DNA of 64,000 bases from Dichotomocladium elegans. Lineage: Eukaryota > Mucoromycota > Mucoromycetes > Mucorales > Lichtheimiaceae. Below are positions 60,705-64,000 of this stretch, piece by piece. The translations under genes and the position numbers were made by a program. The notes beneath the pieces were generated by a model that saw nothing but the letters and a program-made list of their open reading frames with translations, was not told where the DNA came from and searched no databases. The first letter of the stretch is position 1; each line of letters begins with the position of its first letter. The DNA lies in NCBI GenBank assembly GCA_025716815.1, contig JAIXMN010000007.1, forward strand, positions 1,009,501-1,073,500, written 5' to 3'.

Positions 60705-61352
60705 TTATATTGGTCTTCTATTCAAGCAATCATCAAACTTTGCAGTAGAATATTTACAAAATCCTCGAATATCTCCTATAAGAACTTGGATTCTGCTTGT
60801 CAAGGTCTCTTCTTCCAAAAGCTGTTCCCGTTTGAGTTTGCTCTTACAAACCGACCAGAATTGTTCAATCGGGTTCAGCTCTGGTGAATATGGAGGAAGA
60901 TATACACATCGATAGCCACGGTTTTCTATGTATTTGCTGGTGTCATCGTGTTGGTGGATAGGCGCATTATCCATCAGAATATAATTCTCCTTGAAGATTT
61001 CGTGTCGGTTTAGCACGTCCATGGTTTGCGAGAGGAAATTAAAGTAATGGCCAGTGACAGTGCCGCGCTTGCCAGTAGTCTTCTTTGCTGATTTGTTGCT
61101 GCCTGCTCTCTTACGCTTTTTCGATGGAGCGACTGACTTTGGACGCCTCACAGATACATTGACGACACCAAAAGGAGAAATCGCACCAAGAATAGTTGTC
61201 GTCACTGCCCTGGTTTTTGGTACTTTGACGGTTGCTCGAGTACCCTTGGCCGACCGCGCATACGAACGCTTCATGTTGATGTGGAACGCTGCTTCGTCTA
61301 CAAACACGCAGTTGCTCAGGTAGTCCATGTCAGTTTGACCGTTATTTGACAC
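60705..61352 (-). mobile_element. Tc1/mariner-IS630-type DDE transposase, probably 5'-truncated
   Basis: The minus-strand frame ends at 60705. DDE_3-superfamily signatures: TDMDYLSNCVFVDEAAFHIN (first Asp), KRSYARSAKGTRATVKVPKT, TTTILGAISPFGVVNVSVRR, GTVTGHYFNFLSQTMDVLN, YILMDNAPIHQ (second Asp) and VYLPPYSPELNPIEQFWS (Glu third acid). The triad looks intact. The codon before MSNNGQ is GTG, and upstream in the same frame there are TGA stops and no recognisable helix-turn-helix, so the N-terminal DNA-binding part is missing or ruined. I saw no clear terminal inverted repeats. Close relatives are abundant in Mucorales. Confidence 0.85.
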
Positions 61353-62283: not shown

Positions 62284-63731
62284 CATGATATCATACCTCC
62301 AAGACAGGCATGTCTTTCTTAATGTCCTCTATGGACTGGAGGAGGTGCACCACGATCGGTCGTTCTACGTACTTGCCGGTCCAGCAAGTCAATACAACGC
62401 TGTGCTGATACCAGCAGCAGAGGCCCATTTTAACTGCAGGTGCACGCGCCACAAGAGCTACTCCACTTCAACGAGTGTAAAGCCGGGACAGGTAGCCTCA
62501 GAGCGAAGCACTCCCGGCACCAGTTCATCGAGGAATAGCATGCACATTGATACCATCCTCACAGAGATCCATATTTTACAAGCAAAATATGCCAGAAATC
62601 GAAGCTCGGACATGTATATCATGCTTGAAGTCCTGCAATCTGTGTAAGTAAAATAAAATAGTAGATATTAGCAACATGAATGTTTGGAATTATTGAGTAT
62701 CTCACTAAACATTTTGTCTTAATTTAGTGTTGAACAATTTGACGACTGGCGTCATGACAACAGTGAAAGTGAAACCACCGTGTACCGAAGATTCGTTGTT
62801 CTGCTGGACAAGCTGTTACGGAACACTAGTATTATGTTGCAAGAGTAAGAGTTTAAGAAGACCATAGTGTGCTTCAGTGACAAAAGTTGGGACTTCTAGG
62901 CTGATTTTATTCTTTGTTTGATAGCGGCGAAAATGCATCCAATGCAACCAAGGACGCAATGATTCTGCTTCAATCTCTGACTAGCTCGATCACAACCACC
63001 AACGAAAGAACTGAAATGAGCATGTATGGCAGGAAGATTGATCTTCTAGCTATCACGGAATCAAGGGAGCAAAATGTGGAGCTCACGTCGGGAGGTCATC
63101 CAATGCTCGCTTGCATTGCTCGCATTGGATGACCTCCTCGAGCGAATGGAAGCGTGAAGGGGCATCAGAATCAATTTCGTTGAAACAACAGTGCAAGAGT
63201 ATTCGTACAAACGCTGCTATCCTATCGAAATTGATGCTGATTGGTGATCTGGGACATCTTGTAGCAATGGATTGGCTTGGTAAGTACAAAAGTATCTCTT
63301 CATTTAAATTATCATGGTAATAGTTTCTAATGAAGTGAATGATTCGCTATAGGAACATCTGGTTACGGATATTCTTTAAAGTTTGTGGAAAAGCCATTCG
63401 TCGCTCAAACGATCAGTTGTCTGGTAATCCCAAAGCAAGCTTCTGAGCTAGGCGGTTTTGAACAAACACTTGACTTCATGTTTAAGTGGAGGGTAATTCA
63501 AGGATACCAGGAAACATGTCAACTTGTGTCACTAATTTTTGTTTATATTGCGTGTGTTAGAACTTTCTACTGGCAACGGCGAAACAAGTTGGAGAACAAA
63601 TGATGAGAAATAATGAAAGCGTGCGCGGGATCGTGGACTTACCACCGAGGAGAAGCAGATACACTGAATTGCCACCGAACATCATAATCACACCTGGAAA
63701 AAGGCGCAGCTTTGATCAGGTCGATGAGTGA
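62284..63731 (+). pseudogene. Disrupted member of a Mucorales multi-copy protein family
   Basis: Plus-strand exons, with a start possibly at 62284 (MISYLQDRHVFLNVLYGLEE): to 62644; about 62729-62845; about 62926-63279; about 63354-63495; and a last exon about 63561-63731 ending TGA. Signatures: EQFDDWRHDNSESETTVYRR, LLDKLLRNTSIMLQ, DGENASNATKDAMILLQSLT, MYGRKIDLLA, SSEWKREGASESISLKQQCK, SIRTNAAILSKLMLIGDLG, GTSGYGYSLKFVEKPFVAQT, FEQTLDFMFKWR. From memory, this xGRKIDLL/ELSSxEWK/KQQxKxxRxNxxIL pattern is a family present in many copies in Mucorales, function unknown. A 47-base hairpin insert at 63091-63137 breaks the frame between ELTS and SEWKREG and brings in a TGA. No other break was seen. 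Confidence 0.6.
63088..63140. mobile_element. 47-base hairpin insert flanked by TCG direct repeats
   Basis: Insert at 63091-63137. Left arm GGAGGTCATCCAATGC (63091-63106), loop of 15 bases, right arm GCATTGGATGACCTCC (63122-63137): a perfect 16-base stem. TCG stands on both sides (63088-63090 and 63138-63140), as a target duplication would. Removing insert plus one TCG restores the conserved reading frame. Confidence 0.75.
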
Positions 63732-64000
63732 GCACGAGGTTAAAGCACATTTGTACACATTTATATCACACAGCTTCATCCATCACATCTATATCCCCAA
63801 AGTATATCTCTTTATGTAGTATCAAAAAACATCAACATCAAGTTCATGTAAATAACAGAAGGAACAAATGGTTTGACTACCTTTTTCTGAACATCGAGCT
63901 ACCATCAGCTATGTACCAAAATCCGCCAACATTATGCATTGGAATGAACAATACGACGAAAAAGTGTGGTTTATTATAATGACCAATGGACGCTGTGCTC
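63732..64000. other. 3' flank of the broken gene, nothing recognised
   Basis: Short open frames only. The window ends here. Confidence 0.55.

Follow-up and report, generated by a model that had tools for sequence, protein, structure and literature searches.

A 47-bp hairpin interrupts a conserved coding sequence

Near the 3′ end of the window, by which we mean the whole 64,000-nucleotide stretch of DNA that was analysed, a coding sequence is split by a hairpin of 47 bases (Table 1). Its two 16-bp arms are exactly complementary, they are separated by a loop of 15 bases, and the entire structure is bordered on both sides by TCG, so that the geometry first reported for it is exact to the base. 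Perfect inverted repeats with arms of at least 12 bases and loops of 3 to 30 occur only twice in the window, and the hairpin is the longer of the two (16 bases, against 13 for the other); inverted repeats of at least 30 bases within 3000 bases, sought across the window with a 14-base seed, are absent. As single-stranded DNA the hairpin has a predicted folding energy of -18.7 kcal/mol (z -8.1), which none of 200 shuffled sequences equalled. A known structured RNA was considered as its identity and rejected, since window positions 62500-63800 gave no Rfam match at the gathering threshold.

The hairpin breaks the reading frame of its host gene. The frame that enters from ELTS runs into a TGA in the right arm, as had been claimed, and the corresponding open reading frame spans 62914-63132. 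Three pieces of the host coding sequence (P0001, P0002 and P0003) gave nothing in Pfam at E 1.

Table 1. Features of the hairpin and of the host coding sequence (window coordinates)
Feature	Position	Strand
Host coding sequence before the insert, ending ..NVELTS; exon start estimated; no Pfam family	62926..63090	+
Left copy of the 3-bp target-site duplication, TCG	63088..63090	+
Complete 47-bp palindromic MITE derivative	63091..63137	+
Left arm, 16 bp, corresponding to the outer end of the MITE terminal inverted repeat	63091..63106	+
38 bp, 37/38 identical to the terminal repeat of the 284-bp family	63091..63128	+
Loop, 15 bases, corresponding to positions 17-31 of the MITE terminal repeat; one difference, G for A at 23	63107..63121	+
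Right arm, 16 bp, corresponding to the MITE right end	63122..63137	+
GCATTGG, 7 bp, which the full MITE copy L003 has at 32 and again at 269; putative deletion junction	63122..63128	+
TGA in the host reading frame, within the right arm	63130..63132	+
Right copy of the 3-bp target-site duplication, TCG	63138..63140	+
Host coding sequence after the insert, beginning SEWKREG..; exon end estimated; no Pfam family	63141..63278	+

The host coding stretch that follows the insert (P0002, 46 aa) has a sole public homologue at E <=0.01, a protein of 63 aa from a 1378-base contig that is 96% identical to it (P0004); the search returned only proteins of 0.55-1.75 times the query length, which placed full-length homologues out of its reach. 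This protein begins MELTSSEWKREG and therefore crosses the insertion site without the insert, reading ELTSSEWKREG at the protein level. Within its own genome P0002 has eight matches, itself included, the others having E values of 1.0e-5 to 0.0065. The stretch around the insertion site is continuous in all five paralogue loci that were fetched (L082-L086), the match at C101:403086 lying outside this set. It reads CVELSSNEWKRSN in L083 and L085, CDLCSNEWKREG in L082, EILSNEWKRTS in L086 and DIGMSSNELKRAS in L084, where it occurs twice, once on each strand; in none of the five are the inserted bases present as normal coding sequence. The conserved coding context attributed to the site in the preliminary description is thus upheld by paralogues from the same genome and by one near-identical public protein, all of which cross it without the insert.

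One of these paralogue loci, L084 (C1:1594158-1597259), is itself almost perfectly palindromic: its two arms, each some 1.5 kb long and 99% complementary to the other, are separated by 21 bases, and both strands carry a paralogue of the interrupted gene. Its right arm reaches the end of the locus, and the palindrome may be longer.

The hairpin matches the ends of a dispersed MITE family

When window positions 63000-63250 were searched against the genome from which they derive (G000; 39.4 Mb, 122 contigs), 34 matches were obtained. One is the query itself and another the hairpin matched to its reverse complement; the remaining 32 lie elsewhere in the genome. These 32 have E values of 2.2e-10 to 2.1e-7 and cover the hairpin only, to within one base; they are the dispersed ends of one MITE family. 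A copy of 284 bp (L003), used as a query in its turn, gave at least 59 matches at about 25 loci, the window locus among them. Seventeen of the copies at these loci are near-full (at least 234 of the 286 query bases), and the rest are interrupted copies and single ends. L003 is bounded by 73-bp terminal inverted repeats that differ from each other at one position, and over its full length it shows 74% identity to its reverse complement. The termini of the family are GGAGGTCATCC (GGAGG).

Twenty distinct elements in the fetched loci have both ends within three mismatches of the 16-base end; elements with more divergent ends, such as the L019 copy with its right-end indel, fall outside this two-ended set. 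A 3-bp direct repeat, for which the chance is about 1 in 64 per element, flanks 13 of the 20, the window hairpin included (TCG, TTA, AAT, AAT, TAT, ATT, ATA, ACA, AAA, TTT, GCA, AGT and TTT), and two of the seven elements without such a repeat have inverted flanks. Sixteen of the 20 are 261-285 bp in length, the remaining four measuring 47, 47, 241 and 534 bp. Three features expected of MITEs are therefore present in the parent family, namely precise terminal inverted repeats, a target duplication fixed at 3 bp, and dispersed copies of uniform size. The MITE end had 0 matches in viral_contigs, a collection from which records of the same or a very near genome may be excluded. Together, the empty site in the near-identical public protein and the 3-bp duplications at 13 of 20 elements support the earlier proposal of a recent insertion with a 3-base target duplication.

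Several members of the family are unusual in other ways. A 534-bp copy with ATT on both sides (L007, C68:677928-678461) carries about 250 bp of other sequence in mid-element. Single MITE ends of 62-71 bp at L009, L010 and L018 stop near the inner edge of the terminal repeat and adjoin unrelated-looking DNA. At L013:1233-2050 (MITE at C33:399065), inverted copies of the flank extend for 267 bp (97.8%) up to the element, and a further 97 bp follow at 91.8%; at L022:1337-1945 (MITE at C52:130250), the inverted flank copies, which likewise extend up to the element, measure 163 bp (98.8%). Neither of these MITE copies has a target duplication, and their inverted flanks possibly stem from fold-back copying primed by the MITE ends.

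In the window hairpin the outer 38 bp of one MITE end run directly into the final nine bases of the opposite end, and those 38 bp depart from the terminal-repeat consensus at one position. The hairpin is almost certainly a MITE derivative, and on the family matches (37/38 bases) a separate class of hairpins or a chance palindrome was rejected. The insert was originally envisaged as a palindromic element of very small size, below that of a MITE; it is better described as derived by deletion from a family of MITEs, about 284 bp long and present at about 25 loci. Deletion in L003 between the GCATTGG copies at 32 and 269 predicts a product of 47 bp, and this product is identical to the window hairpin at 46 of 47 positions. 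L003 also contains direct repeats that are longer than the junction pair (9, 8 and 8 bp, with predicted products of 265, 220 and 111 bp), as well as three further repeats of the same 7-bp length, and no element between 47 and 241 bp exists among the 20 two-ended elements. In addition, CCAATGC and GCATTGG, with 15 bases between them, form an inverted repeat within the MITE end; the one end tested folds on its own at -6.7 kcal/mol (z -2.65), with 3 of 200 shuffles as good.

A second 47-bp hairpin

A hairpin pattern of fixed loop length matched 72 places in the same genome, against 19 for the backward control. Overlapping matches on both strands, which mark a whole hairpin, occur at two of the 72, the window and C68:1791092-1791138 (L006), hairpins with other loop lengths being invisible to this pattern. 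L006 has TAT on both sides, and its arms contain two mismatched positions.

The two hairpins differ in their likely affiliation. L006 shares 16g, 18t, 23g and 27a with the left end of an older-looking copy, L056, while the window hairpin has 23g, lacks 16g, 18t and 27a, and otherwise bears main-subfamily bases, its subfamily assignment resting on three positions. A deletion in L056 at the same repeat pair, present there as CATTGG, again predicts a product of 47 bp, which matches L006 at 45/47 positions and the window hairpin at 44/47; the product predicted from L003 matches L006 at 41/47. The G at position 23 is absent from the other main-subfamily ends compared, for which reason the exact parent copy was not found; L006, L019 and the two ends of L056 all have this G.

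L006 bears features of a different MITE subfamily, which makes it probable that the collapse took place on two occasions; the 47-bp hairpin would then have two origins in two subfamilies, a proposal that few positions underlie. The collapse of MITEs is of a kind already known; it is the probable repetition of that collapse to exactly 47 bp, in two subfamilies, that is of interest here. Each of the 47-mer sequences was found once, both with the fixed-loop pattern and with exact 11-mer ends.

Origin of the hairpin

The reading that we favour, with a probability of roughly 0.65, is that the hairpin is an internal deletion of a MITE, made in place after insertion of the full-length element. A full-length MITE would have been inserted by transposase at TCG in the host exon, and 237 bp between the two GCATTGG copies would later have been lost, through slippage of a replicating polymerase on the palindrome or through microhomology-mediated end joining, so that 47 bp and both TCG target duplications remained. 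Self-folding of the MITE would bring the GCATTGG copies to within about 22 positions of each other along the stem, by geometric estimate, and may thereby have favoured the deletion. That each 47-mer was found once is easier to reconcile with collapse in place than with propagation of the 47-mer itself. Nevertheless, collapse in place requires two events, insertion and deletion, after divergence from the source of P0004, and a ready-made 47-mer requires one; a full-length MITE allele at the site was not seen; nor was the exact parent found, G23 occurring in no other main-subfamily end compared. Plain slippage, moreover, would not predict the empty interval between 47 and 241 bp (0 of 20 elements), given the equal or longer direct repeats of L003.

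The economy of a single event at the site is what speaks for a hairpin preformed elsewhere from a MITE and then transposed into the exon by the unknown transposase of the MITE, a sequence of events that is conceivable though rather doubtful. It would agree with the complete ends and 3-bp duplications of both 47-mers and with the retention, in the hairpin, of the whole outer 38 bp of one end. Yet there is no sign of spread, the two 47-mers, each found once, apparently belonging to different subfamilies, and two transposase-bound ends on 47 bp have little room for end pairing. Slightly less probable still is the related idea that the 47-bp hairpin is itself mobile, in the sense that a MITE collapsed upon its own terminal fold keeps everything that the transposase needs; several identical copies at unlinked sites would mark such an element, and the two 47-mers were found once each, with marks of different subfamilies. 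The same palindrome could also be derived from one end only, if a MITE end folded at CCAATGC/GCATTGG and a polymerase copied its outer nine bases back. One MITE end can indeed fold in this way, and the position of the L013 and L022 elements at the centre of inverted flank duplications without target duplication indicates that fold-back copying may occur, but a second switch exactly at the element end would be required to keep the TCG duplication, and the letters of the product are those of the deletion, so that nothing specific favours this route, which we consider improbable. The fold-back repair product entertained in the preliminary description thus keeps a possible copying route, through the inverted repeat of the MITE end, but deletion between direct repeats accounts more simply for the retained target duplication. 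Perfect palindromes do arise as artefacts; a fold-back generated in the assembly or library, or an unrelated chance hairpin, is nonetheless very improbable, given the match of 37/38 bases to a dispersed family, complete with the 3-bp duplication and exact ends of that family, and given a second hairpin of the same build, L006, with two mismatched arm positions. Collapse in place of an inserted MITE remains the reading that we prefer.

Transposases and superfamily placement

Among 58 places with exact 11-mer ends, which were read by eye, convergent GGAGGTCATCC pairs within 20 kb delimit MITEs only. The genome has 84 matches to DDE_Tnp_4 and five to Plavaka; at five transposase loci (L087-L091), representing two of the 84 DDE_Tnp_4 matches, two of the five Plavaka matches and one 9-kb stretch, there are no convergent MITE ends within two mismatches. 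An autonomous partner was thus found neither through paired 11-mer ends nor at these five loci.

Plavaka transposase matches with equal scores lie at three places, L087 (C35), L088 (C44) and C92:24794-25108, and L087 and L088 are identical over 3315 bp, which makes them either recent copies or duplicates introduced by the assembly. At L016/L042 (C38:611932-612620), a MITE copy that lacks the 3-bp duplication ends exactly at the start of a DDE_Tnp_4 match. The window itself contains, some 1.7 kb away from the hairpin, a transposase-like open frame of 215 aa at 60705-61352 on the minus strand with a DDE_3 endonuclease domain (E 8.8e-25).

PIF/Harbinger elements have a 3-bp target, TWA, and EnSpm/CACTA elements end in CACTA. 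The MITE family shows TWA in one of its 13 duplications, and its ends are GGAGGTCATCC (GGAGG) instead of CACTA or of the CATCA that is given for PlavakaB (PMC12730594). The 3-bp target duplication itself is shared with PIF/Harbinger, EnSpm and PlavakaB, the last having 2 or 3 bp (PMC12730594). None of the three fits well in ends and target preference, and the family is left unplaced.

Significance and comparison with known systems

At this locus it is possible to name the parent family, the repeat at the junction, the resulting product and a site free of the insert, and one and the same 47-bp outcome seems to have been reached on two occasions. A route that can be tested is thereby outlined, along which ordinary MITEs become hairpins of a size that repeat finders would probably overlook. 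The case also serves as a warning that very small palindromes which break the frame of fungal genes may be transposons in collapsed form. Were the 47-mer mobile, the size limit that it sets for cut-and-paste elements would be very low, and it would rank among the smallest transposable units in any nuclear genome, with repeated origins in different MITE subfamilies. The titles and abstract openings surveyed, a partial sample that carries little weight on this point, contained no description of this MITE family or of nuclear hairpins of similar size in Mucorales.

In its near-palindromic form, precise ends, target duplication of fixed length and dispersed copies, the parent family is like other MITEs; the window hairpin is far smaller, 47 bp against the 284 bp of the parent, its arms enclose only 15 bases, and the mobility of the 47-mer is only putative. 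A likeness is offered by Galileo of Drosophila mojavensis, for which 49 two-TIR and 64 solo-TIR copies are counted among 170 (Table 1 of PMC3573991), and in which reduced copies arose in several subfamilies (PMC3573991). There, too, copies have been cut to two terminal repeats or to one. Galileo is however a P-superfamily element with long TIRs, whereas the terminal repeats of the hairpin are cut to 38 + 9 bp and its target duplication is 3 bp. The double-hairpin elements of mitochondrial genomes are also short hairpin-forming inserts, but they are organellar, whereas the window hairpin lies on a 1.5-Mb contig, has a target duplication and is traced to a family of DNA transposons.
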